Positions 25,772 to 54,855 of a stretch of DNA of 64,000 bases are shown piece after piece. The notes beneath the pieces were generated by a model. It saw only the letters and a program-made list of their open reading frames with translations, ran no database searches and had not been told where the DNA came from. The stretch covers positions 29,215,475 to 29,279,474 of the forward strand of contig OX459096.1 of the NCBI GenBank assembly GCA_949775045.1, in the 5' to 3' direction. This DNA is from Metridium senile (Eukaryota > Cnidaria > Anthozoa > Actiniaria > Metridiidae). Position numbers and translations under genes: made by a program. Positions within the stretch are counted from its first letter, which is position 1. The number at the start of each line of letters is the position of its first letter.

Positions 25772-28700
25772 TCACTTTGAACCAAAATAAGTGGACAAAA
25801 ATGCCATGTCATATAGAGGGAAAAGCACCTCTACGGCAGGTAACTGTGCATTCAGTGATGGCCTTGGCAGCCGGAGGCAGCAAATGCAAGTGTTTGCACT
25901 TGGCAAAAAAGAATCTTGTGCCTCATGGAATTGGATGCTTGGATGAATGTGGAATCCAAGGATAGGTTCTTCGTCTGTGCCAGTGGCGAATGTCAAAATG
26001 CTTGATAATGACAACCCATGTCTTCTACCACCTGAAAACATTGCAACATAATATACATTATTTTGGCTCTTAACATCTTGCAAAAGGCATCGGCACCTAT
26101 AATTTACAACAATCTATTGTCTAATTTCTGTTTTGTGCTTGAATTGGGGCTGGTGTCCCAGCACTATTTTGTCCTGCCTCATATCACAGAGCTGCAATTA
26201 AAATATGCAAATTACAATATAAATGCTCCTTTTCTTATTTCTTAATTTTGTAAGCCAAGAATCAATTATCATTGATATTTTAAGGCAGATTGGGATTTAT
26301 GGATCTTGCTGATAGGATTTTTTTTAATTTTGTAAAAAGGAAAAGATTGGTGTAGAGAAATACTGGAAACTAGTAGCTCAATTTGAGAAGCCATTATTTT
26401 ATGAAGCAATCATATTAGGGAATACTTTTGTTTGATTGTTCTAAATATAACCACAACAGCTGACTTATTAGCATTCTCGTACCCAGACCCTTTTCATCAT
26501 CACTGCCAAAGGCTCTGGGTTACCCTGTATTTTAAAGGCACCTGATTGGCTGTGATAGGCCCTGTGGGGTCTTGGTAGATTTAATGTACTTACTTGCTAC
26601 CTCCCTTATGTATTTTATAAATGCAGCATAGACTTTGTTTTCTAGGGGACGATTGTTTGACCCTTCAGGACTAAATTCGGGTTTCAGTAATTGTGCCAGT
26701 TGCGCCACAGTTAGCTTGTGATCAGTGTTTCGTCTCAATAAATGCAAAAACATTGGTAGTTGACATCCAATCTGTGAAAATGTGAATAGGTTTCTATTAA
26801 AAAAACAGTATTCAATAAATTATTAAAAAAAGATTTTGATTGATTAAAAAATGAGCTTACAATGACTTGGATAGGTTTGGATTTTTCTTAGCAATCAATC
26901 AGTGGTCAATGGGGGTAGAGTTACGTAAATCACTATAGCAACATGGTGAAAGGCCCAAAAGGAACGAAAATTGACCCATGACATGTAACCTAGCAGCCTC
27001 CTACTGTACATACAGAATAGTCATGTAATGTTCTTACACATGGGATGAAACATGCTTCAAAATGCTCATGATCATTAGAAAATTGGACAACATGCACATT
27101 CTCAACTTTTTTAGATTTATATTTTTTCATTTATTTAGTTCTTGAACTGGGGGAAAAAAGTTATAACAAAACATGTCAAGATAAGCATCCCTTGAAAGTT
27201 TTAGGTTAATTCATGTAGCTTAAAACCTGAAGCAATGTAATTTTTTTTCAACTCATCAAAAATAATAATTTAAATTATAACATGATTTTTTGACTGACAA
27301 GGTCATGTGATCACCAGTTTTAAGGATTAGAAAATGTGTGAATGTTCTCCAATAGTCAACCTTCAAAATAGTATAATAATATTGATGTGTATTTGCAGGA
27401 AATAAAAATATCTATGTTCTGACAAGGAGATCTACATGTAACCAAGATAATGGACAAAAAGATGATTTTATTAACTCCTACCTGGTGTATTCCAAGAAAT
27501 TTGAGACCATTTCGCAAATATTGCATGGATGAATGTGGTGGTGTTGGGGAATTAGAAAACATTTTTTGAAGTATTTCTTCTTCTAAAAATGTAGGCATCT
27601 TTCCATTTTGGAGGATACTTAGGCCTGTTAATACAGATTTATCAGTAGTTAATTATAACTCAGTAGACTGAGTTAACACATATAGTATTCTTACCAAGTA
27701 TTTTACCCACTGTGAGGTAGTCCTCTGCAATGTGATCTTTCAGTCCTTTTTCAAAGTATTTACTGTATATTTCAGAGAGGATAAGTCTAAAAAATTCTTT
27801 CCGGGGACCACCTAAATCTTCAGCTTCCTAAAATGTGTACAATAAAATAGTGATTATAAAACTGTTTTGAATCTAAACAAGCTACATGTACATCAAAATA
27901 ATAAAACTGCAGGCATTTTAATATTATGCTTTAACATCAAAAGACAAAAATCAACAACAAAATAAGACAAGAAAACAACCAATCTTTTAAAACATAATAT
28001 ACACCTATCCAAAAAAATCTGCAACTTCAAATATATATGTCTTTTGTTTCCCTATTGTTTTATCTCTCAAGAACAAAAGCCATATATATATATATTAAAA
28101 ATTGCAGAATTTGTTTGGTTAGTTGTATATAATAATATATAATAATATAATATTGATAGAGTGAACACACTAAACCTGTGAAACAAATAGTACTATTTAG
28201 TACTAAATAGTGCTAATTCATATAATAGAAAACAAAGGATTTAGCTTAGATTAGATAATGGATTCTGATTCTTTCTTTTACTGTAATAGAATTCAACTCT
28301 GTTGCATTCCAAACAATATGATGCAGTATTTTTTATCAAGTCAGACTGCACTAATAAAAGCAAAATCATTTCAGTACACCACTATAAACATATAAAATAC
28401 TACATATCAAACAAAACAAATGGTTTAGTATTGACATACTTCACCATAAAAATCTACTTGAAGGGTTTTTCTCAAATCTTCTGTAGGAACCACTTTCAGT
28501 TCATCAAATGCGGTGTCAAGAAGACTGCTTCTGTCAACCAAGATGTGCAGTGTCGTTCCTTCCGACACTTCACTCACACTTTGAACCTCAAGATTTCTCC
28601 CGTAAACAAACTTGCTTTGGACAAGTCTTAGGATCTCAGTTGGGTTTGAGATGTTACCATCTTTGCAGGACCTCACTGCTTCTTGAGCAAGTTTGTCCAT

Positions 28701-29108
28701 TTCAGGACAAATTTCAGAGGCAGGTTGGCTGTTGTTGCTTACTTGAGATGAGCTTTGGCTGTTGTTGCTCACTTGAGATGAGCTTTGGCTGTTGTTGCTC
28801 ACTTGAGATGAGCTTTGGCTGTTGTTGCTCACTTGAGATGAGCTTTGGCTGTTGTTGCTCACTTGAGATGAGCTTTGGCTGTTGTTGTTCACTTGAGATG
28901 AGCTTTGGCTGTTGTTGCTCACTTGAGAATAGGCTGGGGCTTGGTTGTTGGTGTAGCTTACTTCAGTAGGTGGCTTATTGGCTTCTTCTTTATCACTCAT
29001 GTACGAGTTAAGCAAGCCTAAAGGAATGACAATTACATGGATTAGCAAAAGGTGGTGATCGCTGATGAATGCTGGCATCAATCAAAACAAAAGTCGGTAT
29101 CCCCCCCC

Positions 29109-30960: not shown

Positions 30961-33900
30961 ATGGATGGAAAGAGGACTTGTATTGTGTGCAAAACAGCTG
31001 TAGTTTCAAGCGATCAAAGTGTTACTTCGTTGAACGATGTGTGTGTCCATCGACGGTGTCTTGTCTGTACGTGCTGTGGATCTACTCTCGACGAAACCAA
31101 TTACAAATTGATGGAAGATCAGTCTGTTTTTTGTCCACTTCATGAAAGCAATGGCGACTGTGATTTTATTTCGACATTGAGGGAGTTTAAACAAAGTTGT
31201 TTACCTGATGATAACAGTGAAGTTAGCGACCTTCCAGTTGAAGAAGGCCAGCAGGAACGATGCAATTTTTGTAGTTCACATCCTTTAATTACGACAAAAT
31301 GCGGCTATTGGATCGAATGTACCAGCAAGAACTGCACCAAATTACGAAGTGTATTTCAATTAACCGACAAATTAGTTAACAGCTTTTGGGATCTTGGTTC
31401 GAGCGGTAGAAAAATGGCTAAAGTTCTCTCAGAAGAGATTTACGAAAACTATTTCTATGGTTCAAAACATTGGAACTACTTCTCGAGAGAAGAAACAATC
31501 GGACCTGTTATTCTAACTATAAAACAAGAATTCCGTCACTCTCGTGATTTCTTGAGGTAAGTTAACTTATATAAAGTTTATTATTGTAATACATTTCATG
31601 GATACATATTGGTATACGGTTAATTGAAACATACACGGTCAGACATTCTAAATATATTAGTTGTTTGTAATATACACGATAGGTCCAAATCGTCGATAAA
31701 CTATTATTAACGCTCTACATATAACAGATGTTTCCAGAAGTGTTGTGTATTCGTCGTATATTAGAGCAAAGTGTGCTTCTAAATATTCTCACCGAGGAAT
31801 TAAGCCCTTATGCATGCAGGTTTATTGATACAAGTGTTTGGCTTTCTTTGAATCGTCTGCCTTCAATCAGCGCGCGTTAATTCTCTCCCTATTCACACTC
31901 TGTTATTTATTACTTGAGTAAACTATCGTGGAGTATATTTCTGTGTCTTTTAAAGCGATATTCTAGTGAGGGGAGATAAAAAGCAATTTTAGTGCTTTCG
32001 TAATTTTGACCACGCGCTACCAACATGTGTAATTTGCTTAACAAAAGACATTTCCCGTTCACTGTGACGGTTTCGGCAGGAGACCAGTTATTTATTATAG
32101 ACATATCTTTACGCTTTTGTACTCTATACACTTCTCTCCAGGACATTACTTTTTTCGAATGAACTCTAGTGGTTTTAGTGTTGGTAAACCACAACCATTT
32201 TGCTTTCGAATTTCCACTTCAGCCTAAGGAAATTGAAATCAGTTTAGAAAGCGAAATTGTTTTTGAATTCGGTGTTTTTGTATTATGTTATTGTTGAATT
32301 TATTTAAAACATCGGGTTGTGTTTCACTTGTGGTTTTTTGTATGCTTTTGTATTTATAAATCTATTGTTGTCTAATGTGATAATGATTTGTGAGAAAAGA
32401 GATTTATTATCCATTAAAAGGAATTATTTGTCATTATTTTTAATGCGTACAACTTTTTAATGAATTGTATTTCGGTTTATGTCAGCCATTATTAATATTG
32501 ATTAAAGATTTTTAGGAGTTGTGTTTTATTTCCTAAACAATATAGAAAACACCACTTAAAAATTAATTAACATTTTTTCCCCCGGTTATATATTTGGAGT
32601 AGACCTTAATTTAAAAGGAATAAAATAAGTTGACTTCCTATATTGATGTATCAAATATGACAGGAATAAGCACTTTGATCAAACGTAAGTCTAACCAAAA
32701 TACATAAGTTGTGTAAACAAATATGTTGAGTCAACAACTTAATGATGTCTGAAATAAAAATTGATCATTTTTTCAAATAAGGAAGTAAGATCATTCATCC
32801 ATTTGATCATTCATTCACCTATCTATATATTTAACTATCCATTGTTACATTCATTCATTCATTCATTTATATATTTAATTATCCATTGTTTCATTTATTC
32901 ATTCATTTATATATTTAACTATCCATTGTTACATTCATTCATTCATTCATTTATATATTTAATTATCCATTGTTTCATTTATTCATTCATTCATTTATAT
33001 ATTTAATTATCCACTGTTTCATTTATTCATTCATTCATTTATATATTTAATTATCCATTGTTTCATTTATTCATTCATTCATTTATATATTTAATTATCC
33101 ATTGTTTCATTTATTCATTCGTTCATTTATATATTTAATTATCCATTGTTTTATTTATTCATTCATTCATTTATATATTTAATTATACATTGTTTCATTT
33201 ATTCATTCATTCATTTATATATTTAATTATCCATTGTTTCATTCATTCATTTATATATTTAATTATCCATTGTTTCATTTATTCATTCGTTCATTTATAT
33301 ATTTAATTATCCATTGTTTCATTTATTCATTCATTCATTTATATATTTAATTATCCATTGTTTCATTTATTCATTCATTCATTTATATATTTAATTATCC
33401 ATTGTTTCATTTATTCATTCATTCATTTATATATTTAATTATCCATTGTTTCATTTATTCATTCGTTCATTTATATATTTAATTATCCATTGTTTTATTT
33501 ATTCATTCATTCATTTATATATTTAATTATACATTGTTTCATTTATTCATTCATTCATTTATATATTTAATTATCCATTGTTTCATTCATTCATTTATAT
33601 ATTTAATTATCCATTGTTTCATTTATTCATTCGTTCATTTATATATTTAATTATCCATTGTTTCATTTATTCATTCATTCATTTATATATTTAATTATCC
33701 ATTGTTTCATTTATTCATTCATTCATTTATATATTTAATTATCCATTGTTTCATTTATTCATTCATTCATTTATATATTTAATTATCCATTGTTTTATTT
33801 ATTCATTTATATATTTAATTATCTATTGTTTTATTTATTCATTCGTTCATTTATATATTTAATTATCCATTGTTTCATTTATTCATTTATTTATCTATAT

Positions 33901-36900
33901 ATTTAATTATCCATTGTTTCATTTATTCATTCATTCATTTATATATTTAATTATCTATTGTGTCATTTATTCATTCATTCATTTATATATTTAATTATCC
34001 ATTGTTTCATTCATTCATTCGTTCATTTATATATTTAATTATCCATTGTTTCATTTATTCATTCGTTCATTTATATATTTAACTATCCATTGTTACATTC
34101 ATTCATTCGTTCATTTATATATTTAATTATCCATTGTTTCATTTATTCATTCGTTCATTTATATATTTAATTATCCATTTTTTTATTTATTCATTCATTC
34201 ATTTATATATTTAATTATCCATTGTTTCATTTATTCATTCGTTCATTTATATATTTAATTATCCATTGTTTCATTTATTCATTCGTTCATTTATATATTT
34301 AATTATCTATTGTGTCATTTATTCATTCATTCATTTATATATTTAATTATCCATTGTTTCATTTATTCATTCACTTATCTATATATTTAATTATCCATTG
34401 TTTCATTTATTCATTCGTTCATTTATATATTTAATTATCCATTGTTTCATTTATTCATTTATTTATCTATATATTTAATTATCCATTGTTTCATTTATTC
34501 ATTCGTTCATTTATATATTTAATTAACCATTGTTTCATTTATTCATTCATTCATTTATATATTTAATTATCCATTGTTTCATTTATTCATTCATTCATTT
34601 ATATATTTAATTATCCATTGTTTTATTTATTCATTTATATATTTAATTATCTATTGTTTCATTTATTCATTCGTTCATTTATATATTTAATTATCCATTG
34701 TTTCATTTATTCATTTATTTATCTATATATTTAATTATCCATTGTTTCATTTATTCATTCATTCATTTATATATTTAATTATCTATTGTGTCATTTATTC
34801 ATTCATTCATTTATATATTTAATTATCCATTGTTTCATTCATTCATTCGTTCATTTATATATTTAATTATCCATTGTTTCATTTATTCATTTATATATTT
34901 AATTATCCATTGTTTCATTTATTCATTCGTTCATTTATATATCTAATTATCCATTGTTTCATTTATTCATTCATTCATTTATATATTTAATTATCCATTG
35001 TTTCATTTATTCATTCATTCATTTATATATTTAATTATCCATTGTTTCATTTATTCATTCGTTCATTTATATATCTAATTATCCATTGTTTCATTTATTC
35101 ATTCGTTCATTTATATATTTAATTATCCATTGTTTCATTTATTCATTCATTCATTTATATATTTAATTATCCATTATATCATTTATTCATTCATTCATTT
35201 ATATATTTAATTATCCATTGTTTTATTTATTCATTTATATATTTAATTATCTATTGTTTTATTTATTCATTCGTTCATTTATATATTTAATTATCCATTG
35301 TTTCATTTATTCATTTATTTATCTATATATTTAATTATCCATTGTTTCATTTATTCATTCATTCATTTATATATTTAATTATCTATTGTGTCATTTATTC
35401 ATTCATTCATTTATATATTTAATTATCCATTGTTTCATTCATTCATTCGTTCATTTATATATTTAATTATCCATTGTTTCATTTATTCATTTATATATTT
35501 AATTATCCATTGTTTCATTTATTCATTCGTTCATTTATATATCTAATTATCCATTGTTTCATTTATTCATTCATTCATTTATATATTTAATTATCCATTG
35601 TTTCATTTATTCATTCATTCATTTATATATTTAATTATCCATTGTTTCATTTATTCATTCGTTCATTTATATATCTAATTATCCATTGTTTCATTTATTC
35701 ATTCGTTCATTTATATATTTAATTATCCATTGTTTCATTTATTCATTCGTTCATTTATATATTTAATTATCTATTGTGTCATTTATTCATTCGTTCATTT
35801 ATATATTTAATTATCCATTGTTACATTCATTCATTCATTTGTTTATATATTTAGTTATCCATTGTTTCATTTATTTTGTTTGTTCATCCATCCATCTGTT
35901 TATTTATCCATAATTGTTTCATTCATTCATTCATTTTGTTCATTCATTCATCCATTCATTTATTTATTTATTTATCTATTTATTTATTTATTTATTTATT
36001 TTTTCATTAATTAATTCATTTTTAAATTTCAATTGCCCATTCATTCACTCATTTTACTCCTAAAATATCTGACAATTAAGAAAAGTTTCCTTTCTTCTTT
36101 AAGAGACAAGAAAAATATGCACTCAAGGCAAGAACAAACTATTAACTTACCAACATATTATACAAATTAATGGTCCTTCTTTCATCTTTTGTTTTTAAGG
36201 GTTATGGTGCGTTCATCTTCACATGTTATTCATGGCATGATCCCTGTCAGCAATATTTCATCAAACACTTATGGCCATGAGGAAGTAGTCCACTTTTTGT
36301 CCAAAGAGATTGGACTAGAATCACAGCTCAAGCTTATCACTTTGCCGACAGCTCCTGCAGAACTACTCAAAATTGACAAGGTATTTACTTTTTTGCGTGG
36401 GCGGTATTTTATTCCATAGGTGTTGACAGATAAGTTGAAAAGGTACGTGAGAAAGCGGAGGTCTGGTCTGCACAAGTCAACTATATAATGCTTTATTTTT
36501 ATTGTACAGCTTTATATCTGATGAAGAGTGGCTGGGATTGTGACAGATGGTGTATAATATATCTGATGTGGAGAAGATGTTATAAGTGCTATTATAAAAT
36601 TTACCATATTTATATCAGAGACAGAAACACACAAGTAAAAAAAATGTTAAACATATTTTATAATGTTGATTTAAAAAAAAAAAATGTTTTAGTAGATGCA
36701 TATAAAAATCAAATCCAGGAGGGTTGGGATGGGGTTTATGTCAATTTAATGGTTTTATTTAATTAAGTCCAAGATGCACAAATATTAAAGGAGGGTTTAT
36801 TTTACTGTATTTTATTAGCAAAACGTTATTATTTTTATTGAGCCTTTGGGATTATAGTGACCTAATTCTATATATATCTTTTTATTGAACAGCTTAAATG

Positions 36901-39900
36901 ATAACATCTGTTAAGGTCATAATATAAAAAATGTCAAATTCTTTATTATTTTCTCTTCTTTTTATTGTTAATTGTTTCGAGTTAATTGAAATTATAACCT
37001 CTGCTATCGACCTCTCCCATTGTATTTGTTTATTAGTGGTTATACTTGATACTTCATTTAAATTTTATAGCTAAAATCATTTATTGTATCCTATCCTATA
37101 TTTATAATCTCATCCTGTCATATTTGTTGATTTGTTGCATGCTCAAAGTCAAAATGAAATTCACATTTTGATGGCCGGGATCAATGCAATGATTTTGGCT
37201 AAAAAAAGAAATTTGCATGACACGTACAGGATCTTGGTTAATAATGTACCTACAAAAGCTGTTTGTTAATTTAATTTGTCTATTTGTTTGTTAATTTGTC
37301 TATTTGTTTATTCATTTGTCTATTTATTTATTCATTTGTTTATTTATCTATTCATTCAAATATTAATTTGTTCATTTATTCCTCTTTCGTTTATTAATGT
37401 ATTAATTTTCTTGCATTTATAATTTTTTCATTCATTCATCCATTCATTCAGAATTCATTTACTGATTTGTACCTTACTAGTAATCGGCTAGAGTACAAAC
37501 ACTAAAAGTGTGCAATACTTTGTACTATTTACCACTAAATAGTGTTGATTAAACAATAGAGAACAATAGAATTAGCATAATTTAGCATAATTTAGTGGTA
37601 TTTATGTTGCACACTTTTAGTGTTTGTACTCTACTATGTGCAATCACTAAATTATGACCAAAAGCTTTTAGTAATCATTAATTATTTAACAATATCGGTG
37701 GATCAGTAATAACCAAGACAGAGTCGAGGTTATTATTAACTGATTCACTGAGCCTGAGGTGGATAATTGTTTTAATATACATGATTATTTCAAAAAAAAA
37801 CCTTTTGTGAAGATAAACTTATCATTTCTCATATCGAAAAGCGCGGGAAACGCTGTAGGAGGCTATCGAGAAATAGTGTGAATTTCTCGACCAATCACCA
37901 TGCTCGCTTTTCTATGATCACCTGTGTATTTATACTAATATCATTTGTACATTCAAGGTTTTTCTCAAAGACGAGTATAAGGTTGGAATCATCTACATCA
38001 AAGAGGACCAGACAACAGAAGAGCAACTGTTCAACAACGAAGAGCACAGCAAAGCATTTGATGATTTCTTGGACCAGTTAGGAGATCGTGTCAGATTGAA
38101 AGGGTTTGGCAAGTACCGTGGAGGCCTGGATACTATCAATGACCTGACCGGTACCCACTCTGTTCATGCAACTTACGGAAATAAACAAATTATGTTCCAT
38201 GTGTCCACATTGCTGCCGTTTGAAAAGAAAGACATACAAAAGGTAATATAATTTTTCATATAATTTCTCACCCATGCACCTCGCTTTGCCTCCTCCGCAG
38301 GTAACCCACCGGAATTCGGACTTCCTTTCTATATTGGGCTTCCTTTGTCGAGAAAAAAGAGGATTTTGCCCGCGGAGGAGGCTACACCTCGCTTATCCTG
38401 TTCGCGTTTGGTTACGCATACGCCTTCTCAGTTCCTTCTTTATGTCTTCTATTGTCGCTAGTTTATTCCTACCATCTTGTCATATTTCACCCATTCATTC
38501 TTTATGACCACTTCTATCTTTGGCAGAACTTTGCATGCGTTTCATCCCATCCCATTCACTTGCTTGACTCCTTTTTCACTTGCTTGACTCCTTTTTCACT
38601 TGCTTGACTCCTTTTGTCTCATTTTTGATTGTCTTCTTCCTCCCCGCTTGTGCTTTATATCAACAAAACACTAAACAGCGCTCCTCCCTCTACTGTACTT
38701 AATTCATAGCCTGCGTAGCAATCCCACCGATTCACCACTTATCTGTCTTTTCCAATATCCCCTCCCTTCCCCCTTGCCTTCTCTGCTTCATCTTAGTGTT
38801 TATCTAAATCCTTTAAATGAGAGAGAATAAAACAGTTGTTATTATACCTTTTGTATAGCTGCAGAGAAAACGACACATTGGAAATGATATCGTGTGCATT
38901 GTGTTTCTGGAAGGCACGCAAACTAAGTTCGACCCGGAATGTATCAAGTCTAATTTCTTGCACACGTTTATCGTTGTACAAGTCGATGTCAAGGTCGATC
39001 CACATAGTTACAAAGTAAGTTATTTGATGAAGAATGTCATGAATATTACCCACGTCTGAATATATATGATCATTGATCCTAAAAGCCCGATGAGGGGGAG
39101 GAGGTCTCAGGGGTACGTACAAGTATCGGCTATGCTCATCGAAGATTTTGAAAAACATCCCTAAATGATATCTTGACCGCTTTTTTGTTTTCTTTGCTTC
39201 TATATTTCGCTATGACATTTCTTTATATTTGTCAAGGTTTCTGTAGTATCAAGAAACCAAGTTCCCCTATACGGACCTTCTCTGGTGGAAAAAGACTCTT
39301 TTACCAAGGTAAACTAATTCATGCCCCAGGCGAGAAAAAGGCACCGCTTTATACTGTGCGTCCACAGATTTTGTACTAGACACATTAGTACTCGCGTTAT
39401 ATTTAGCAGTTACTAGAGAAAGGTCTTTATCAGGCCGCGCACCAAAGGAGCATTGGAACTAGACCATTATATAGCCCCATGAAACCCAGTGTGGAGGACG
39501 CTTATATACCTGCAAATATAACGAATAGCCCCCTTAACAGTTCCCTGCGCCATCTTGAAAGGTAGCCGGGCCTTTGCATCGAAGCCAGACGACCGTCAGT
39601 TGAGCTTGCAGTGATACTGAAGACCTTTCAACACATTGCCGCGGGACAATTATTCACGTGTCTCTATCATTGCAAGTTCAACGTAGTCTCGCTTTGATGC
39701 AAAGGCCCGGCTACTTTTCAAGATGGCGCAGGGAACTATGAAGGGGACTATTTTGATAGAAGATCATAAAACCTTCGTGCAAGTTTTATTTTAATTATCT
39801 AGTAGCTTCTAGGAACTGAGAGATATACAAATATCATACAAATGATATCATTAATAATTGTTGTCAAATTGTCTTAACTTTATATTTCCATATGTCAGGG

Positions 39901-42900
39901 TCCTGAATTCAAAAGATGGATATTGAATAAAGTAATAAATGGAGAAATAGCTTCTCATAAAGCACCGAAATTTGCCAAATTACATGTAAGTCAGTGGACA
40001 TATAATTGTTGTTTTTCTCCGATAGATTACTTCGGTTTGCTCTGCACCATATAATCAACATCATTTTAATAACTCAGCATCAACATTACTGATCATTATC
40101 ATTAACATTATCATCATCATCCCTTCTTCGTCGCCATCATCATCATAACCACTATCCATTATCATAGTCATTAATATTTTTATCATTATTATCGTTATTT
40201 AGTTATTTAGCTATGCATGTATTTCTGTTTTGATTGTGTTTTATTTTTTAAATGTCACACTTATTTACGCATACATTCGTGCATGTTGTTTTTGGTGTAC
40301 ACATAACTGTTTTCTATACTAAACATTTCGCCGCACTCTTGATTGTTTTCCTTGCAGCAACGAACGCGGTATCAATTAATGAACGAGCTGTTAGACTCGG
40401 TAGAAAAGTCCTCGAGTGTCGAAAGGGAGAAAAGAGAGCCGCAGCCCTTCAGGTAAAACTATTTTGTTTATTTTGTGTTGCGTCGTTTTGTTTGTTATTT
40501 AATTTCACTTTGTTTCGTTGCTTGGTTGGTTTGTTCATATTTAAAAGAGTTTCTTAACTATGGTTGTTGTAACGCCAGGTCATGGCATGTTTATTTTTTT
40601 GCCGGTTTTCTCCTTTGCTGCTGCTTTATGCTGTTGTTTTGTGTTGTTTCGATTCGTTTCGTTTCGTTTCGCTTTGTATTTTGTTTTCATTTTGTCGCGT
40701 TTCGTAGCGTCGTGTAACGTCTAAGGAATTATGTTGCGCTGCTTCTGGCTGGGTTGTGCTGTGCCGTCTGGCATGCATTTCGCTGCATTTTGCGATATGC
40801 GTGTTTTGCTTATTTGTTTTTGCGTTGTGCTCTAAATGCGTTTCGTTGTGTTTTGTTTTGCGTTTCGGAGTGTTGTCTAGTGTTGCTATATATGTGTCGA
40901 CCGAGTGTGTTATGTACAACACACAACGTTTTCTAACTACTAACTTCTACCTTCCAGGGAACACGGCCGTATCAGTCAATCAAGCATCAGGTACTATAGC
41001 AATATATCAACAGCCCTTCTCCAATTTTTCCAGAAAATTGACGTTTATAGTTCATTTTTGTTTCAGTTCACAGGACAGTAATCCAGAAACCTTTGAAGTC
41101 GCTGATCAAGTACCTAAAGATTTCAGTGAATTACTGGGAAAACAGAAACAAACGGCCGATGTTCGATTTATTGTGGGTAGGTCTTTACCTCTATATATAC
41201 TGTATTCTCCATCTTCTTCTGGTTTAGCCCATATCTCCTTTGGTAGACTTCTTCTCCTTCTTCTTTTTCTGGAGGTTAACCCCTTATCCATCCCTAGTTG
41301 TTTTTCCAGTGTAGTCCACTTCAGGGAACGTTCATCAAAAAGAATCTGTTTCCTCATATCGTCATTGGGTGGTCAAGGCCTCTGCCATATCCATATCTTT
41401 ACTATGCTTTTGATAAATCAGACAATGCTTCTCTCAAAACAAGTTAAACTTACTGATGTGTCGTTTTTTAACTTATTTTCAGGCAAGACCCAGAAGAAAG
41501 TTTTTCTTGGCGTAAAACCAATAATGGCCGCTAAAAGCAGGTATTATCAATGTGTTACTTATCGAGAGATGGCTATTTTAACTTTTCAGAGAACGAGAAA
41601 GGCGTTCCGAATGCTCACTTAGTTTCTGAACTGAGCCATGATCCTTTGCGCCTCTAGTTTGTCATGTTTGTAGGCTTTTCACCGCGGGAGACAAACTTTC
41701 TAGGAATGGGTTTATAAAGACAGTGATGATAAGAGCAATAATGTGATCATCGTGCAAGATGATGGTTGCACTGATGTGGTGGTGATTGCAAGAGTAATCG
41801 TGTTGCTGATGGTGGTGATTAGCCTTCGTAAACAGACCCTTATTAGCGCTCGAAACGTCTCCCGCGAAGCGCTAATGAGGGTCTGTTTACGCAGGCTAGG
41901 TGGTGATATGATATATATAATTCAATATACTTATATAATTGTCATACGTTTTTTACATGAGCCTCTGGCTCGGATGTAAGGGCGACCTTATCCCACGTTA
42001 TGACTTTAATAAATTGATTGATTGATATGATGCTTGCGGTAATGATATCGATGATGACATTAGTGCATGGTGGTGATGCCGGATAATAATTGATGATTGT
42101 GGCGATAACGAAGGCGATCATTGGAAACAATGTGGGCGGTGACTATGTATAGTCATAGCTATAGGCCTGGAGCAAGGATGGCACAGTTGTTAGTGCGCGG
42201 CGTTATGCGCGAGAGTTTCCGAGTTCGATTCTCCTGCAGTGACCTCACATCCTTGTTTCGACTGCCCTCCTTTCCGTGTAGCTTTAAGTAACTTTAAATA
42301 CCCGTAAAATGTAGCACTGATGGAGAGAGGGGAGTAGATTAAAATGAGCGCATCGTCTTCCTAAGTCAGCCGTCGGTTACATTTTTTACGGTGTTACAAA
42401 TTTCATTATATTAACTTTAATTTGACGTAAAATAATGTTGTCTTTACTTTACTTTACTATGATGATCAAGTGCTGAACTGATTCTAATCTCTTCTTTAGT
42501 GTGTTCCAAAAGCTGCTTATCGACGATTCACCAACGGCCGTCGAACCTCCCTCCAACAAACTAGCTCAAAATGGCTCCACCTCTCCAACTCAGTCTACCC
42601 GCACAGCAACTTGGGGGATCACTGGCTCGATCCTGCCTGGTGTAACAAGAAGCAGAAAGTTCTCACTGAAAAAGAATTTGCGTTCACATAGTAGCGGTGA
42701 AGACGATGTTGTGCTGTCTTCCTACTCTGGACTTGATCAACATCCACAGAAAAATGGTGGACGACATAATGGCAAAGAAGCGGCTATTCATCAAGAGGTA
42801 AGAAATTTGGTTAATATAATTTGTTTGCATTACACAATGAATTGTATATTTTATTGTATAATGGGTTTTTGTGTAACCGACTGATATTTTTCAATTTTTA

Positions 42901-45900
42901 ACGTCTTAATTAATCTTGTAACCAGATACAAATGTGATACTATTTAATTCTCGACTTTCATGTTTATCTAGCACCGCTGTTATTTAACAAAATGCACGTT
43001 TGCACAGGCAGGGTTGCCTCAATTCAAAATATTGTTGAGCGATAATTTTGTTTCGTGGTTTGCTTTGAATTTGTGAAATATTAGTACAGCACACAAGGCT
43101 TAGCCTGTGCAAATGCTCTATTTGTCAAACATCAAAGAGGGTCGTACAGGGGTATTATCGTGATGCGTGTTATATAAGCTACTTTTATTTTCCGAGAAAC
43201 GTGAATTTAATAAATTCTTCTCCGTGATCCGTGACCCAAATGTTTTGCGTGACCCGTGAAGAACTTGAATCAATAACCGATATCCGTGATCGACGTACGT
43301 GATTTTGAGTTGCAAGACCTCCTTTGATTTATTTTATACCTTTTATTCAGTATTCACACTCCTTTTTTGACAAGTTTTTTTTATGTGTAAGAGTAGGGTA
43401 AAAGAGTGCGTTACTTCCATATTTTCGTGATTCGTGATTATGAAATTTTGACATCCGTGATCCGTAGTTTGCAATTTTTTTCGGCCGTGAACCGTGCCAG
43501 AGACCCCCTAGATACGACCCTCATCAAAGCGCTGCTAGATAACGTGAACGTGAACCAGGAATATCACTATCCCTTCGTTAAAATATTTTAGCACACAACT
43601 CTGCTCACATATATTTGCATTTATTTAATAAAATGCTTTATAAATGCTCAAAACGTATGGTTTTCTTATTGTGTCATACAGTATATCGTGGAAGATTTCG
43701 AGCCTGATGATTTTGATGCTCTTCTGATGTATCTTCATTGTGGTTCTTGTCATATAACAGCTGGTATATTACCTGGATTACTGTGTGCTGCACATCGGTA
43801 TGACATTAAAGAACTACAGCAAGTCTGTACGGACAGCATCGAACTTTGTTTAGATGAAACCACAGTAAGTATGCGAGTAAAAAGATTTTGACTCTTATAC
43901 GTATATACCTATTTCAAAAAAGGTTGTCGGAGAGAATTGGCGATTGGCTCTGGACTAGTTACGTACATGCAATAAAATTTGTTTCAAATAGACTATTTGT
44001 ATTATAGCGTCATACTACGACCAGTACCAGAATGCTTTGTCTACTTTCCTTTGTGAAATAAAAATCTGAATAAGAAATAAAATTCGTAAAGCATGCTGGT
44101 ACTGCCTACTGGTAGTAAATGACATATTCATGCAAATGGCCTATATAGGTTGTAATGTGTGTATGATTATGATCGTCGCGGAGAAATAAGCAATTTATGC
44201 AATTGCAATTATAGAAGCCCGAAAAAAATTAGGGACTTCATAGATTGTAAGTGAGAAACATATTATGAAACTGTTATGGGCACAAAGTTTCACTATACTA
44301 TTTCTTGCGCTAACGTTGGAACTAGATCGCTCCCTGGGTCGTATTGCTACGTTGTGGCAGTGGAAGTAGCCTGCGAAAACAGACGTTGTTCCGCTCCTCG
44401 TCCCCCTGCGTAACTAACGCAGGGGGACGAGGAGCGAAACAACGTCTGATTTCTCAGGCTACAGTGAGACGTTTCGTGACATCATGTGTGGCCACAGTAA
44501 AACGTCAAAATATATACTTGCGTTAATCTTTATTTTAAGAGTGACTGTCAGTAAGAACCAGACATATCGTGGCAAAAGTCGATTCATCTATTTTGTTCAT
44601 ATTTTGCAGTTCGATACCCTATCATGTTGTAAGAACTCCTGTGAACTTAGTTTAAAAAAATGTGTTTTCGTTTGGGAGAAATTTGAATTATTATGCGAGA
44701 AGGCAAATATGCTAATTCGACGACTCTGAAATAGAGACCACTCGGCGATCTCGTGCACAAAATACAAACAATATTTAACCTTAAAAACCTAATAACCTTT
44801 AAATATGCTATCTCTATATGCCTTATAGCGTATTTCAGACTTGTAGCTTTAACGATTAATTTTTGGCAGAATTTTGTTCAGGACACAGTTTTCATGAGCT
44901 AAAAAATACCCTCAAAACAGCCGCGAATTAAACTATGTTCGATATAACGGAATAGTTTGATATTCACTGTGTGTGAAGTTAAGATAATGTCTTAAAACAC
45001 TGCCGAAAAAAATTGCTAGGTTTTTATGTTTTGAAGTTGTTACAGTCGATCTAAGTTGCCTAAATTGGCTGTTTTTTACGATCATTTTTGCATAATTAGC
45101 AACGATAATGAGCGTCAAAACAATAATACTATTTGCAACAATCTTGTATTAAACGTATTTAACATTAGCAATGAGTCAATTTGTATTCCTTATTGTAGTT
45201 AGAACAATATTTATTCCAACTCGATATAAATCATGCATGTATTTTCGGGGTTTTAATGGTTTTGTAGCTTTTTGTTTATACAAAACCAAGGAGCATTGCG
45301 TGACAACTGGTAAGATAATTATCATTCTCACGTGTACAAGGTGCTTGGCAGCATTCTAATACCGGTAATGTAATATTTTGATTTCGTATTCTACACATTT
45401 GCTATAGCTGCCATGATTATAAAGTGCTGACATCCACAAAGCATTCATGTATGTATAAAAGCAGCTCTAATAATTAGAAAAATGTTTGTTCAAATTTATA
45501 CAAATGATTTTTGTGATCATAAATCAAAAGAACAGTAAATCTCCTATAGACCCTTTCATAAGTCCCTAAGTGTTGTGTTTTCCGCCGTTGACGTCCAATT
45601 TAATATTATTTTTGTTGAAATTTGTACAATATTCAAGAAATTGAGTTGTACCTCTAATAAACGGTCACCCTAGGGACTTTTCAAAGTGGCCGCTCAATAG
45701 ATGTTGGCTGATGAATAAAGGTTCGGCATAAATCTACATATATAAAAGGGGTGGAAATGGCAGGTTACGTTACTTATCGGTTATTTTAATAAATCTGTGT
45801 CTTTTAAATAAAAGAAAATACATTAATTTTGAGCATTGCTCTTTAGACTTTCTCAAAGTCCGGTTTTTTTCGTATTGGTTTCTCTCGTTTATCTCGTTTA

Positions 45901-48900
45901 TCTCTCCTTTATCTAGTCGTTTAGCGACCCGTCAAAATAAAGAGTGTATAGTCGACTTGTAGCAAGTCTGCCAAATATTGCAATTAGAAACTGCATTATT
46001 TGTTTATATAAGCATCGCATTATTGCTAAAATAACGTACTACTCAAACCTGTGTTTCGTTTCTTACAAAAGATATAAAATAAAACATTTATACTGGAGTT
46101 TTTATCAGAAATAAGATCGGTCATTATCTTGTAAATTTCATGTTGTAGACTTTAAAGATGGGATCAGACAATCTGCTCTCAAAGAACAACTACCGGTATA
46201 TCTATCTTCTATCCAAAAACACTACTACTATTCTATTCTACTATTATACAATTTTGCTATATTGAAGGAATTGTGTTGTGAGTCTCATGCATTATATAAT
46301 ATTTTTTTATGACTTCTATCAGATTCATTTTAGTATTTCAAAGGGCAGTATCTAAAAGTCTTGCCATATCTATTTTTAGTAACACTCGCACGAGGATATA
46401 ATTGGCTTTGTATAAACAAAACGATCCGGATCAAAACCCCGAAAATACATGCATGATTTATATCGAGTTGGAATAAATATTGCTCTAACTACAATAAGGA
46501 ATACAAATTGACTCATTGCTGATGTTAAATACGGTTAATACAAGATTGTTGCAAATAGTATTATTGTTTTGACGCTCATTATCGTTGCTAATTATGCAAA
46601 AATGATCGTAAAAAAACAGCCAATTTAGTCAACTTAGATCGACTGTAACAACTTCAAAACATAAAAACCTAGCAATTTTTTTCGGCAGTGTTTTAAGACA
46701 TTATCTTAACTTCACACACAGTGAATATCAAACTATTCCGTTATATCGAACATAGTTTAATTCGCGGCTGTTTTGAGGGTATTTTTTAGCTCATGAAAAC
46801 TGTGTCCTGAACAAAATTCTGCCAAAAATTAATCGTTAAAGCTACAAGTCTGAAATACGCTATGAGGCATATAGAGATAGCATATTTAAAGATTATTAGG
46901 TTTTTAAGGTTAAATATTGTTTGTATTTTGTGCACGAGATCGCCGAGTGGTCTCTATTTCAGAGTCGTCGAATTAGCATATTTGCCTTCTCGCATAATAA
47001 TTCAAATTTCTCCCAAACGAAAACACATTTTTAAAAACTAAGTTCACAGGAGTTCTTACAACATGATAGGGTATCGAACTACAAAATATGAACAAAATCG
47101 ATGAATCGACTTTTGCCACGATATTTCGAATTTGTCTGGTTCTTCCTGACAGTCACTCTTAAATACAAAATCGTTATTAAATATTACTGATTAAATAGAC
47201 AAGAGTCACCCTCTAAAAATCAGGGCTCATTTCCCACAATGGGACTCCAGGGTTTCTACAAAATGACAGGAGTTTTAAAGGGTGCTTTTGTTTTGTGTAG
47301 ATATATACGCTGCTGCAGTCAATGGAGCAGTGTACAAGATACCCTGAAGTACAACAGATGCTACAGAACAAGGTATGAAACGGTTTTTTTAGAAAATTTT
47401 ATTGCATACTTTGCTTTTGAGAGGAGCTTGTTGTATCAAGGACTAATGACATTGCTGCACAACATGCTGCAATATGAATATTATCTGTAACCATAATGTG
47501 ATATGTTATATTTATATTAAACCATTGCTTATTTTTCAGGTTGATGTATATCTTCAGGAGAACAAGCTTATTAAACTGGATGCAAAGCCAACTAGTTTAT
47601 TGTCTGAGAAAAATCTGAAACTCATCTTAACAAGTGTTGCAAAGGTCAGTATAAATGCAAATGATTTTTGAATGTTAACTTTGTAAACACAATATATGTA
47701 CAAAATGAAAGAAAAAGTTACAAAATTGAAGGAATTTATTTCAATCTGAAAGTGACATACTATACTCTGAAAATGAAAAAATAATAATATTATAGATTAA
47801 CGGGTTAGCTCAGTTGGGAGAGCACGGCCTGTTAACTGGGAGGTCAGGGTTCAAACCCTAGCCGGACCATCACTCAGGGTCGTAAAATAATTGAGGAGAA
47901 TGTTATAACTTTGTATTTATTTCGGTTTATAATTGTTAGGCTTCGCGTCCTCTCGGATAAGGACGTTAAATCGAAGGTCCCGCCTCTCCACTCACACACT
48001 AACCATAAATCGGGGGGACGTAAAAGAACGACTGAGGACACAGGTCATGACCATCCTCAGTAAAAGGCCTACACTTACACTAATTTATACTAATTACTAA
48101 CAGCTTATTATAATGTGTAAAGCGCATTTGAATATATACACATAGAAAGTGCGCTATATAAATGCATTATCATTAGCATTATCATTAATACAAATTGAAA
48201 GTTGCTTTATCCTAATTACAATTGTTTTTCTTTGTTTAAAGGGAAATGAAATTTCGAAATTCAATGCTATTATTGAATGGGCAAAAGGACAAAGCATGAA
48301 AATGGGTATGTTCAATTTATAATACTAATTATTAACCAATATGTGTAAGCATGCTAATTTGGCTTTCCACATCATTGGGTAACGTCATATAACTGGATAA
48401 TATCAATATCATCTTCATTATGTAATCAATTATTACAACTATCATTAGCATGAATGAAAGAATGCATGAAATAATGAATGAAAGAACAAAGTGATGAATG
48501 ATAAAATGAGGAATATGGTGTGGATGTAGGGGAAGTGTGAGAGAGGATACATTGTAAAAAGTGAAGATTTTGCTGTTAGAAAATGGAAGACCCCATGGGT
48601 CCACATCTGGGGGATGGACACGATGGACACGATGGATTAATACATTGAAAAATTAAAAATGCAATGGATGGGATAGTGGTTGAATGGGAAAGAATGGAAG
48701 AAAGGAGGGAATGGATAAATATATGAATTGGTCATTTAGCAGACTAGTGTTAGCCTGCATCACATCTGGACATGACGCAGGCTAACTTGTGAGTGCTTCA
48801 GAAGCGAAAATAAATGAATTACTAAGGCTGCGTTCATTATGTATGGCAGAGGGGGGGGGGGGGGGGGGGGGGAAAGGGGGCAGGTGAAAGTTTTAAATGC

Positions 48901-49539
48901 AAAAAAAATCCCAACACCCCCCTCACAATTCTCAAAAAATTTAACACTGGTATCCCCCCACTTTTCTGATAAAAAAATTCACATCCCCCTTTTCTTGGAA
49001 ATTTTTTTCCAGATCCCCCTCAATTTCACCTGCCCCACCCCCCTGCCATACATAATGAACGCAGCCTAATTAAATTATTATTCTCCTAGAATGTTGTGTT
49101 AGTATAGAAGAACTTGCTAAACCACTTATCTCAAACTATGTGGATTTGACTGATGTTTCTCCTGATGATTTAATGGAGGTAGGTAACTAGTGTCCTGCTA
49201 GAGTTATTGTTTCTTTTTAGAGATATTTACACCCTCACCATGTCAAGTAAATGTACACTGTCGACTGCAGTGCTTTGCAAAGCAAGTATAGGAAGGGGGA
49301 TGTAAAGGTAGTAGCATTCTATAGTAGCATTAAAGAGTTTAAGTGTGGAGCTTATTCGAGGGCATCACTTATTTAAGGGCGGCATTTATTCAAGTAAATA
49401 CAGTAATTACTTTTCATAATTGATCTATAATCTTTTACTATAATCTTTTACTATTTAGATTGTATATCCAAGTGGACTGGTATCAAGTGATCAACTGATG
49501 GTGATCATGGCAGTCAAGGCTGATCAAAGCACAAGTTGA
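30961..49539 (+). CDS. LIM - RapGAP - BTB - BACK fusion protein
   Basis: Seventeen exons join in frame to 854 residues: 30961-31556, 36200-36380, 37958-38242, 38859-39014, 39237-39308, 39899-39985, 40358-40452, 40958-40990, 41067-41176, 41483-41540, 42500-42797, 43682-43864, 47301-47372, 47540-47644, 48242-48305, 49090-49178, 49459-49539. Residues about 6-60 are a LIM zinc finger (CIVC..., [14 protein letters not shown]). Residues about 110-490 match Rap1[51 protein letters not shown], then [15 protein letters not shown] with the Asn-thumb asparagine intact, [11 protein letters not shown], and [24 protein letters not shown] domain follows ([19 protein letters not shown] to [11 protein letters not shown]), interrupted by a Ser-rich insert of about 90 residues encoded mainly by exon 11. 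A BACK-like helical end closes it. Predicted role: Rap GTPase-activating protein, possibly tied to a Cul3 ligase by the BTB (inference). Confidence 0.9.
32795..35880 (+). repeat. Minisatellite of about 3.1 kb, 44-bp unit, in intron 1 of the RapGAP gene
   Basis: Roughly 70 copies of a 44-bp AT-rich unit starting TTTCATTTATTCATTCATTC and ending TTTAATTATCCATTG. Variants (GTTCATT, TTATCTATTGTGTC, short units without TCATTCATTCAT) recur in fixed order. A block of about 345 bp is repeated near 33180/33525, and a 600-bp block at 34620-35200 is repeated almost exactly at 35220-35800. This is higher-order repeat structure. Confidence 0.9.
35881..36050 (+). repeat. Degenerate (TTCA/TTTA)n simple sequence
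   Basis: Tail of the minisatellite, decaying to ATTTATTTATTT and TTCATTCATTCA runs. A similar weak patch is at 37265-37450 in intron 2. Confidence 0.6.
37489..37633. mobile_element. MITE with TAGAGTACAAACACTAAAAG ends
   Basis: TAGAGTACAAACACTAAAAG is mirrored by CTTTTAGTGTTTGTACTCTA; the centre contains TAGTG/CACTA repeats. 145 bp, in intron 2 of the RapGAP gene. Confidence 0.75.
37745..37935 (+). repeat. Dispersed repeat, second copy
   Basis: Shares TAATTGTTTTAATATA, GGAAACGCTGTAGG, ATCGAGAA-TAGTG and CTCGACCAATCA with 21660-21870. It ends just before the acceptor of exon 3 (37957), so a transposon remnant forms part of this intron's 3' end. Confidence 0.6.
38276..38395. repeat. GC-rich hairpin after exon 3
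   Basis: CACCTCGCTTTGCCTCCTCC / TCCGCAGG pairs partly with CCCGCGGAGGAGGC and is followed by a repeat of CACCTCGCTT. Small MITE-like, within an intron. Confidence 0.45.
38553..38616 (+). repeat. Tandem repeat, 23-bp unit, about 2.7 copies
   Basis: CACTTGCTTGACTCCTTTTT repeated three times with a 23-bp period. Confidence 0.8.
39539..39737. mobile_element. MITE with AGTTCCCTGCGCCATCTTGA ends
   Basis: 199 bp. The left end AGTTCCCTGCGCCATCTTGA and following GTAGCCGGGCCTTTGCATC are mirrored at the right. In the intron between exons 5 and 6. Confidence 0.75.
41821..41897. mobile_element. Short hairpin, CGTAAACAGACCCTNATTAGCGCT
   Basis: AGCCTTCGTAAACAGACCCT pairs with AGGGTCTGTTTACGCAGGCT (77 bp). 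Its end sequence resembles the TAGCCTGAGAAAACAGAC family. Confidence 0.7.
42165..42400 (+). mobile_element. tRNA-derived SINE (probable)
   Basis: A polymerase III A-box-like TGGCACAGTTGTTAGTGCG and a B-box-like GAGTTCGATTC lie 30-odd bases apart. AAGGAT/ATCCTT at the ends recalls an acceptor stem, and an unrelated body follows. No proper anticodon arm forms, so it is not a functional tRNA. Confidence 0.5.
43137..43522. mobile_element. MITE with GAGGGTCGTA ends, 6-bp target duplication, GATCCGTGA repeats
   Basis: 386 bp between direct ATCAAA copies (43131-43136, 43523-43528). Ends GAGGGTCGTA and TACGACCCTC. The interior holds many variants of TCCGTGATCCGTGAC on one strand. Intron between exons 11 and 12. 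Confidence 0.75.
44020..44118. repeat. Imperfect hairpin in intron 12
   Basis: GACCAGTACCAGAATGCTTT pairs with AAAGCATGCTGGTACTG around an AT-rich loop. Small MITE-like. Confidence 0.45.
44367..44461. mobile_element. Strong hairpin, TAGCCTGCGAAAACAGACGTTG arms
   Basis: 95 bp with arms of about 45 bp, nearly perfect, meeting at CCCCCTGCGTAACTAACGCAG. Same family as 7821-7896. Confidence 0.8.
44539..47158. mobile_element. Second long-inverted-repeat element with TTAA target duplication
   Basis: Begins GAGTGACTGTCAGTAAGAAC and ends with the near-complement, flanked by TTAA (44535-44538, 47159-47162). The arms are about 750 bp, 44539-45290 and 46405-47158, with few mismatches. The interior of about 1.1 kb has no transposase but holds remnants of other repeats (45570-45605, 45640-45720). 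End sequence and TTAA flanks match the layout of the 14483-20095 element. Confidence 0.8.
45635..45730 (+). repeat. Fragment of the CTCTATTAAGCGGTCACC repeat
   Basis: ACCTCTAATAAACGGTCACC, then GGGACTTTTCAAAGTGGCC, closely resembles the first part of the MITE at 59038-59220. Confidence 0.6.
47803..48190 (+). mobile_element. tRNA-derived SINE
   Basis: A tRNA-like head has a good A box (TTAGCTCAGTTGGGAGAGC) and B box (GGTTCAAACCC); a GTTAA loop recalls tRNA-Asn, but the acceptor and anticodon stems do not pair. The body contains GGATAAGGACGTTAAATCGA and CGTAAAAGAAC, and the tail is GTGCGCTATATAAATGC followed by an ATTATCATTA-type repeat. This layout is typical of marine invertebrate SINEs. Intron between exons 14 and 15 of the RapGAP gene. 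Confidence 0.8.
48825..49067. mobile_element. G-rich MITE with AGGCTGCGTTCATTATGTAT ends and a G22 tract
   Basis: The left end AGGCTGCGTTCATTATGTAT is mirrored by ATACATAATGAACGCAGCCT. The 22-G run at 48851-48872 follows the left end; the right side is C-rich. Related in layout to 7333-7745. It ends only 23 bp before exon 16 of the RapGAP gene. Confidence 0.75.
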
Positions 49540-51934: not shown

Positions 51935-53569
51935 TCAAGGAATACCAAACTGTCGCTTGCAGCACTGAGATGGTGGTACTTCCCAATCATATTCAAATGA
52001 CTTGTGGAGTTCTTCCTCTTCATCACAGAGTTTTTTTGTTTTCTTTAGACTTTCATACTTTGTGTACATGTCTTGGGCACTCTGCTTATGGCTTACTATA
52101 TGTTGATTGTTACATCCACGGGAACGGTATTCAGTGTCGAACCTTGTGTCATGTTCACGATGTAGTATCAGGGGTGCTAGCCAGGCTCCTTATATTAAAA
52201 AACGATTGATAAGAAATCAGAAGGTGAAATACAATAATTTAGCTATTGCTATAACCATTAGAGAGATATAGAGTATCTCACCTGGCAGTATTAAATACAG
52301 CACCTTACATAATTATGTGACATTTGAATGCTAACATGAAAAAGGCAGTTTATGCTGCCATCAATCAAAAATGATCATGCAGTTGGTACCTTACTGATAT
52401 TATGATTGACAGCAAAAATGCAAAAATGCATTTTACATGTTGCTATCTGATCTTTGATGGATGCGTAATTATAAAATGCACTATAAATCAGGAACCAGTT
52501 GTACGAAGCCTGGATAAAGTTATCCACTGGATAACTCTCCACTGGATAAGAGTCATCCAGTGTATATAGAATTTGAATAGGTTTTATCTTTTAGATAGGG
52601 ATTTATCCATGGATAGCGCTATCCAGGCTTTGTTAACCATGAGCCCCAGAAGGAAATGGGTTTAACTCTGCCTGGAGATATTTTATTCTGAGTATAGTTC
52701 ACTTGACATTACTTCTCTTAACTATTAATTATAATCACATAATATGTATTCCTGCATCCATACATACCTACAGACACATCCTCACTGTTATACAGTTGAA
52801 GTAAATCCCAATTTCTTGCAATAAAATTTACCAGTTTTGTTGACAATACATAGCCACCACCATTAGCATAAGGCAGATAATGATCACATAATACCCACTT
52901 ATGCTCTGCCCACTTGCCCTTACGTTTGACACGGGCATTACCTCTGAAGAATCCCCAGTAAAGATTTGGTGTCTTAATAGACTTGGAATGACTCAGTTCA
53001 GACACAATCTTATCTATCCTTACAAATGAATCGTCATCAGCTTTCATTACATACGAACAATCAATATTCTCATTTATCCATCTGAAGCCCTGCAATACTT
53101 TGTTAGATAATTCGTAGTAGCCATCCTTTAGATGTGGAATTATAACGAGATCTTGATAGCTTTGGTTTTCACTTTCAAGCAAATCTCGATCAGATTTGGA
53201 CAATGTTTTACCACCGATAATAAACTTTGCGATGAAATCTGATTTCACATTTTTAAGCCAAGTGCTTCGTATAGCATCTCGTCTTTCTGTTCCTTTAGGA
53301 GAAGTTAGTATCATAATAAATAAAAATGTACTTTTGTTTGGTGACGTAGTTTCAACCTCTCTCTTTGTCTTGGTAGTGGATTCCAATGAATCAATATTTT
53401 CATCTTGAAAAATTGATTTACTTGTTGCGTCCTTTGCAGAATTTCCGGAAAAAATAATTATTATAAAAATAACTGTCACAAATAATAAAAATAGGGCTCT
53501 CAGAGGATGTAAAAATATGTTTTTGTAAACGAACCTTCGACAAGATGCCATTTTGAATAACTCGTCCAA
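51935..53569 (-). CDS. B3GALT6: Beta-1,3-galactosyltransferase 6 (galactosyltransferase II)
   Basis: Golgi type II membrane enzyme that adds the second galactose of the glycosaminoglycan-protein linker (Gal-Gal-Xyl-Ser), family GT31. Two exons, 53569-52768 and 52188-51935, joined at a split Gly codon: 351 residues, slightly longer than human (about 329). A signal anchor lies at residues about 24-42 (ALFLLFVTVIFIIIIFSG). The catalytic region has RRDAIRSTWL, the DxD-type motif KADDDSF, LYWGFFRGNARV and YLPYANGGGYVLS. The second exon has GAWLAPL, REHDTRFDTEYRSRGC and the family-specific end VPPSQCCKRQFGIP. The vertebrate gene is intronless as I recall, so the intron at 52189-52767 is a difference; it holds a TTGATNGCAGC repeat fragment and the MITE at 52500-52640. 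A second in-frame Met 6 residues on could be the true start. Confidence 0.95.
52500..52642. mobile_element. MITE with GTACGAAGCCTGGATAAAGT arms in the B3GALT6 intron
   Basis: CAGTTGTACGAAGCCTGGAT, then TTATCCACTGGATAA, pairs with GGATAGCGCTATCCAGGCTT, then TGTTAACCATGAGCCCC. Same broad family as 49826-49935. Confidence 0.65.
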
Positions 53570-54855
53570 GTAGACTGGGAATAGTTTACAATGTCAACAA
53601 ACTTGTACCCTTGCATGGTTTGGCAGAAGCTTGACTATTAACTCTAATTTTTTAACCCTCTTTTAAAGCCGCGATGCGGCAAACGAGCTGCTTAGACGAC
53701 GACTCGCTGCTTCGCAGCTCGCTCGCCGCTACACGGCGGTTCAAAATCGCCGCTTCGCCGCTCAAAATAACTCAGGCAAGGAGAGAATTAGTCAACCGGG
53801 TAGTCAAGCCTCTGGTAACCAGGGTAACAAACTTGGTATCTTTGAATTATTTACATACATACATACATACATACATTTTTATTCTCGTCCTTAAAAGGCT
53901 TTTCAGAGAACATAAATTACAAATAAAATATATCTAGAATCAATAGAGAGAAAAAAATAGTAATAATAAAAATAATAAGAAATAAATATATATATATATA
54001 TACATATATACTTACATACGTATATATACCCTATAAATTACATTAATTAAATTAAGTATCTATAAATTTGTTACATTATCTAGTAAAACTATCTCTTCCT
54101 CTTTGCCTTTCTTGAGTCGCATCAGTTATAAATCAGCAGAACTTTTGGTCTTCCACTTGTTCTTTTTTTGGCTTGAGATCTTGCCCTTTCGACGTCACTC
54201 AGCAAAGCTTCAGTTTTGCATGCTGGCCGTTGGCTCAAAACGAGCTCTTCCGCCCTTTGACAGGTCTTATTTTTCGTCCTGCTGGGTGACATGCCACCCT
54301 CCTCACTAACATAATGTTAGTGGGGGAGCCGGTTTAGTCGCCGACAACCCGACCATGCGGCAGGTGGTACTGGGTTACAATGTTACCAGTAGCAGAGTCA
54401 CCAGTATTTAGAAGTTTCTTACTTAAAATATGATAATATATTTTGAAAAATCTCGATAGGATTTGCTTGAAATTATGATCTTAGAATCTACAGACTCTAC
54501 CCTGAAAAACTCATCTAGAGCGCGGGTTTCCTGTGTTGATTTTTAACAACAGAACACCCAACTGACTAATTTTTAAATTAAAACTATTTTAGACTAAAAG
54601 TTGAAATTAAAAAAGCTACATTTATATGCTAAAAGAATACATTTAATGAAGATGCATATAGAATAAAATAAGAAATATATTAAATATACCAAGCCCTAGC
54701 TGTGTTTTGGGCTTCCTGTGTTTGTCGACAAATACGTCTAGCTGCTACACGTGCAGCAAAATGGCGGCGTTGTAACTTTGTTGTTGTGTGTTGCATAGTA
54801 TTTTAGCTTATTTAAACACCAAAAAGACATTTGTTATCGTACAAATCAACCGAAT
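53570..54855. other. Divergent intergenic region between B3GALT6 and NUFIP1
   Basis: It contains a GC-rich patch at 53668-53770 (CGCTGCTTCGCAGCTCGCTC), a CATA microsatellite (53850-53876), a TA-rich run (53985-54030), and, on the minus strand near 54310-54130, a short open stretch (e.g. SDVERARSQAKKRTSGRPK) that may be a retroelement or decayed gene piece. The polyA-like, microsatellite-tailed order on the minus strand recalls the 3' end of a LINE. The final 150 bp before 54856 is presumably the NUFIP1 promoter. Confidence 0.4.

Follow-up and report, generated by a model that had tools for sequence, protein, structure and literature searches.

A predicted Radish-family gene joining LIM, RapGAP and BTB domains in the cnidarian Metridium senile

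Gene structure and domain organization

The forward strand of a 64,000-nucleotide stretch of Metridium senile contig OX459096.1 (positions 29,215,475 to 29,279,474; 'the window') was found to carry a gene of 17 coding exons (30961..49539), which was rebuilt from the sequence and specifies a predicted protein of 854 residues ('the query') from 2565 nucleotides (nt). By its domains and homologues, this gene is identified as a cnidarian orthologue of Drosophila Radish. The gene model was based on splice prediction and on co-linear homologues; all 16 introns are GT-AG and the exons join in a single frame with unbroken phase, with exon 8 being only 33 nt long. An earlier note on this DNA had described one gene of this structure, which was borne out by the splice sites, by the phase and by single proteins that cross the same junction in several phyla. 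The LIM-RapGAP-BTB order, which the note had proposed to look for in cnidarians and other animals, was indeed found within single proteins of a coral, hydrozoans, a priapulid, hemichordates and arthropods. All parts of the gene described below lie on the forward strand.

A search of the query against hidden Markov models identified Rap_GAP (PF02145, 1.1e-58), Rap-GAP_dimer (PF21022, 7.9e-13) and BTB (PF00651, 1.2e-11, in two stretches). The N-terminal LIM domain (residues 7–61, exon 1, 30979..31143) scored 19.8 bits and was further recognized by conservation and comparison with LIM folds; all eight ligands of the predicted zinc sites (C7, C10, H30, C33, C36, C39, C58 and H61) were present with LIM spacing. 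The Rap-GAP dimerization domain (residues 159–251, exons 1–2, 31435..36356) and the Rap_GAP catalytic domain (residues 284–463, exons 3–7, 38030..40369) were both covered by the alignment with the Rap1GAP structure 1srq, which extended over residues 159–474 (E = 3.4e-75; 1srq and 3brw both gave about 1e-75). The C-terminus comprises the two halves of the BTB domain and a BACK-like helical region (residues 711–850, exons 12–17, 43841..49524), the latter delimited by a family profile and the fold of a homologue. Hence, each module named in the earlier note was recovered, LIM below the Pfam cut-off and BACK through the family profile and homologue fold.

The asparagine thumb is the catalytic residue documented for Rap1GAP (N290) and TSC2 (PMC7804450). 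Its counterpart in the query is N363 (exon 4, 38883..38885), situated in the KRHxGN helix that marks asparagine-thumb GTPase-activating proteins (GAPs). The motif was intact as the note had stated; in the 1srq alignment a ten-residue stretch of the catalytic helix containing N363 was identical in Rap1GAP, and the motif was kept in 75 of 77 family sequences.

Two repeats were observed within the introns. Intron 1 contains a minisatellite (32809–35875) with a 44-bp unit in about 71 copies, while intron 12 contains an inverted repeat (44561–45257 and 46430–47127) with arms of ~700 bp that are 98% identical, which is perhaps a foldback element.

Homologues and phylogenetic position

Scoring in the homologue search was confined to the 7992 candidates with the most words in common with the query; 326 proteins were obtained at E <=1e-3, of which the best 120 were listed; 127 fetched proteins were compared with the query part by part. 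Among the matches listed, the closest relatives had the same domain order and several were named radish or rsh, while the nearest named relatives outside Radish were Rap1GAPs. Identity between the RapGAP region of the query and Radish-type sequences was mostly 48–60%, and was lowest at 42–43% (P0065, P0062).

Of the 127 proteins, 116 aligned over more than 270 residues and 43 were kept after near-copies were removed. Two trees of the RapGAP domain were estimated, with 44 sequences including the query, and then with 43 after omission of a long branch (P0069). In the 43-sequence tree, 29 Radish-family sequences, the query included, were split from 14 Rap1GAPs (support 100/100), SIPA1 and GARNL3 being absent from this comparison. 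Species names were available for sequences from Oculina, Hydractinia, Clytia, Priapulus, Ptychodera, Saccoglossus and many arthropods, and others were placed by the tree. The query grouped with six sequences of the Oculina group (99/99), four medusozoan-type sequences clustered together (100/99), as did 18 bilaterian sequences (97/95), and the Radish orthologue described here is probably anthozoan.

The query therefore has LIM, Rap-GAP dimer, Rap_GAP and BTB(-BACK) regions ordered within one protein, and a RapGAP domain that sides with Radish, the fly protein in which LIM, POZ and RapGAP domains have been reported (PMC7928361). The statement in the earlier note that Rap1GAP-type proteins have neither LIM nor BTB domains was correct for Rap1GAP itself, but not for Radish (PMC7928361), which is the best-matching family. 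The distribution of homologues indicates that the LIM-RapGAP-BTB design is older than the split between cnidarians and bilaterians, and that it was inherited rather than assembled by a recent fusion.

The interrupted BTB domain and Cullin-3

The first half of the BTB domain (residues 517–565, exons 9–11, 41110..42521) was delimited by the two-stretch match and by alignment to BTBD6, and the second half (residues 651–710, exons 11–12, 42777..43840) by PF00651. Between them is a variable insert (about residues 566–650, exon 11, 42522..42776), placed after the phi-x-E site of Cullin-3 (CUL3)-binding BTB domains according to alignments. The matching residues of the Priapulus homologue, 578–673, had a predicted local distance difference test (pLDDT) score <50. 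The interruption followed directly after a helix that reads VFxEML in most sequences and VFQKLL in the query. Measured with a simple pattern, the two halves were 98 residues apart in the query and 70–199 in 60 of 62 sequences; two outliers of 245 and 424 residues were probably mis-anchored. Profile alignments with KLHL11, KLHL3 and BTBD6 likewise placed the insert at the phi-x-E site, the first half alone being weakly aligned to KLHL11 and KLHL3 (1.8 and 4.2 bits).

Residues that contact CUL3 were counted relative to the anchor helix, which was measurable in 70 of 78 family sequences, using KLHL11, KLHL3 and BTBD6 as controls. The glutamate of phi-x-E occurred in 0 of these 70 sequences (the query included), compared with all three controls, and no phi-x-E was seen in any of the 70 within eight residues past the helix, deeper insert residues not being scanned. 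The position equivalent to A77 of KLHL3 was charged in all 70 (63 E, 6 K and 1 D; K in the query), compared with A, A and P in the controls. In KLHL3, both A77E and E85A are reported to disrupt Cul3 binding severely (PMC3616122). The suggestion in the earlier note that the BTB-BACK module could recruit Cullin-3 was therefore not upheld, and because the glutamate is absent and the A77 position charged throughout, a link between Rap inactivation and ubiquitination via CUL3 is unlikely on this evidence.

Predicted zinc-binding clusters and the pancrustacean insert

A second cluster of cysteines (residues 101–125, 31261..31335), of the form CxxC...GYWIECx4C, lies between the LIM and RapGAP domains. 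No Pfam family was matched over it in the query, and it was recognized by conservation across the family. The GYWxEC-type motif was present in 10 of 11 cnidarian sequences, some of these being assigned by the tree only, and all 10 had a CxnC upstream and a fourth cysteine downstream, with an intervening histidine in four, including the query. Elsewhere the motif was present in 56 of 67 sequences: 39 had both CxnC and histidine, one had CxnC without histidine and in 16 the first pair was missed, either because the pattern allowed too short a spacing or because the gene model began late. The fourth cysteine was found in none of these 56. This cluster is a probable zinc knuckle of the Radish family, and a ligand swap from histidine to cysteine could be compatible with a zinc site.

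The distance separating the two LIM zinc pairs was measurable in 34 of the 45 sequences with a recognizable second half, those with a preceding CxxC. In 12 of 13 measurable pancrustacean sequences, four of them from Drosophila, the pairs were 380–539 residues apart; the thirteenth, from Petrolisthes, gave an ambiguous gap of 94 that was read from an internal CxxC. In the 21 other measurable sequences the gap was 15–92 residues, and the 19 residues of the query contained no site for protein kinase A (PKA). The myriapod Chamberlinius (P0026) and its neighbour in the tree (P0022) had a gap of 23 residues, and therefore the insert dates to pancrustaceans. The 11 sequences without the first zinc pair include Drosophila, beetle and wasp models; some isoforms or models thus have the second half only, and for these the evidence for an insert is weaker.

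The insert was composed of 26–31% Arg and Ser in the 12 sequences. Sites of the PKA type, R[R/K]x[S/T], were counted in 17 chosen sequences; in the 12 with the insert, this segment contained 10–19 per sequence, in every case more than the maximum from 300 shuffles (shuffled means were 1.5–3.2). There were none in the LIM gap of the query, Priapulus, Saccoglossus or Clytia, and two in a tick-type sequence (P0014). A review gives 23 potential PKA sites for fly Radish (PMC9369046), and in the Drosophila virilis protein (P0019), 19 of 24 PKA-type sites were inside the LIM insert.

Other features of the window

Open reading frames were observed on both sides of the Radish-family gene. At 22406–24013 (+), a frame of 535 residues contained an integrase core domain (rva_4, E = 9.7e-76) and is probably transposon-derived. 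A frame at 25772–26113 (-) matched the HECT domain (E = 6e-8) and may represent one exon of a gene for a ubiquitin ligase. The frame at 28425–29081 (-) had no Pfam match and contained a 10-residue Ser/Gln/Asn repeat, which is encoded by a 30-bp tandem repeat of 6.8 copies at 28725–28928. Downstream, a frame at 52718–53593 (-) contained a Galactosyl_T domain (E = 7.3e-30). A 46-bp hairpin was located at 44366–44462.

Functional interpretation

The protein is probably a dimeric Rap GAP of the Radish family, targeted by zinc fingers and with a BTB domain that does not serve CUL3; activity, dimerization, zinc binding, targeting and cellular function are all predicted from sequence. Its Rap1GAP-like core, with an intact asparagine thumb, would stimulate GTP hydrolysis by small GTPases of the Rap type. 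The dimer would be held together by the RapGAP dimerization domain and the C-terminal BTB-BACK region, while the LIM domain and the second zinc knuckle would direct the protein to its site of action; the earlier note had suggested that LIM could target it to adhesion sites. Given the long, flexible insert next to the place of CUL3 contact and the absence of contact residues, the BTB domain would most likely serve as a dimerizer and scaffold, these roles being more likely than ubiquitination.

Several observations weigh against this reading. The LIM score is under the Pfam curated value of 22.9 bits, and the second half of LIM was found by pattern in only 45 of 77 family sequences, many models starting late. 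Pfam did not recognize BACK in the query, and this part of it found no match in eight relatives, six from the Oculina group and two hydrozoan. Two sequences (P0065 and P0124) were without the thumb motif, the latter matching just 41 residues of RapGAP. The literature consulted yielded no biochemistry on a Radish RapGAP. A heat-shock rsh transgene partly rescued a memory defect (PMC3166323); should that construct prove to lack the RapGAP region, a role of GAP activity in this memory would be disfavoured. Finally, one paper describes fly Radish as able to bind Rac1 and mentions a proposed partnership with Bruchpilot (PMC6529013), and another describes an apparent interaction with Rac1 (PMC3770896). 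These reports favour a protein that regulates Rac or a different GTPase, or that acts as a scaffold, in which the RapGAP fold was retained chiefly as a binding surface and Rap hydrolysis was secondary. That alternative is improbable given a catalytic helix equal to that of Rap1GAP and a thumb motif retained in nearly every family member, conservation that would be unexpected in an inactive enzyme.

The proposal that the BTB-BACK module recruits Cullin-3, and thereby links the switching-off of Rap to ubiquitination, either of Rap itself or of a partner bound by LIM, draws on a profile and fold of the KLHL11/KLHL3 type. KLHL11 and KLHL3 are Cul3 binders. CUL3 may be contacted through other surfaces, which would count against a non-CUL3 BTB, but the consistent loss of the glutamate and the charged A77 equivalent, together with the KLHL3 mutants, make an adaptor of this kind unlikely. 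Misjoining of two neighbouring genes by the splice model, one encoding LIM-RapGAP (exons 1–7) and the other BTB (exons 9–17), could be suspected from the shortness of exon 8, from a linker that is weakly conserved in the Oculina group and from a model that rests on DNA rather than on RNA of this genome. Phase is nevertheless continuous through canonical splice sites, and the identical order exists within single proteins of Priapulus, Clytia, hemichordates and arthropods. Furthermore, among the matches listed, five Oculina-group proteins of 729–767 residues cross the junction on contigs of <=2399–3415 nt; these contigs are too small for a gene with such introns, and therefore the five are probably transcripts. 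Because same-order single proteins exist in several phyla, the locus is very unlikely to represent two genes.

As a Radish-family Rap GAP, the protein adds an anthozoan-like representative to a recognized family whose biochemistry is unexplained. Radish, which the fruit fly needs for a form of memory, gives genetic access to anesthesia-resistant memory, and a 2022 review treats as unknown whether and how its putative GTPase-activator role takes part (PMC9369046). A compact orthologue without the insert should lend itself better to biochemical and structural work than the fly protein (1464–1475 residues in the four Drosophila sequences with a measurable first zinc pair), and the comparison separates the ancestral parts (Rap GAP, LIM and BTB-BACK) from a pancrustacean addition, while an unsupported CUL3 model gives way to a testable one without CUL3. 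It is conceivable, if rather doubtful, that the query keeps the ancestral Radish form, a zinc-targeted and dimeric Rap GAP with a non-CUL3 BTB, and that the PKA-site-rich insert changed the pancrustacean LIM domain from a constitutive targeting finger to a switch controlled by cyclic AMP, moving the Rap GAP to and from its site. If so, the stretch bearing most PKA-type sites of the fly protein would be a late graft, and PKA would control anesthesia-resistant memory by opening and closing LIM.

Comparison with known systems

The BTB-BACK regions of KLHL11 and KLHL3 share a profile and fold with the query family; the query differs in having no Kelch match by Pfam search, no CUL3 contact residues and a split BTB domain. 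GARNL3 bears a CNH domain, and no match to CNH was found in the query at E up to 1 by Pfam search. GARNL3 has been named the most likely human orthologue of Radish (PMC9369046). Rap1GAP (PDB 1srq, 3brw) resembles the query in its dimerization and catalytic domains and has an identical catalytic helix; however, the 50 Rap1GAP-type sequences were 39–44% identical over RapGAP and did not match the N-terminal, BTB or BACK parts, and many of those among the matches listed had a GoLoco motif.

Among cnidarians, the coral Oculina patagonica (P0001), Hydractinia (P0055) and Clytia (P0057) share the LIM ligands, RapGAP and BTB with the query, with RapGAP identities of 58%, 49% and 48% respectively. None of the three matched the BACK part, although the hydrozoan C-termini do align there in a separate alignment. 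Drosophila Radish (rsh) differs from the query in having no fourth cysteine in the second cluster and, like most measurable pancrustacean sequences, in the long Arg/Ser-rich insert inside LIM. In both proteins LIM, RapGAP dimerization and catalytic domains, split BTB and BACK follow in identical order, and six Drosophila sequences (P0007, P0009, P0010, P0011, P0018 and P0019) cover 96% of the query.

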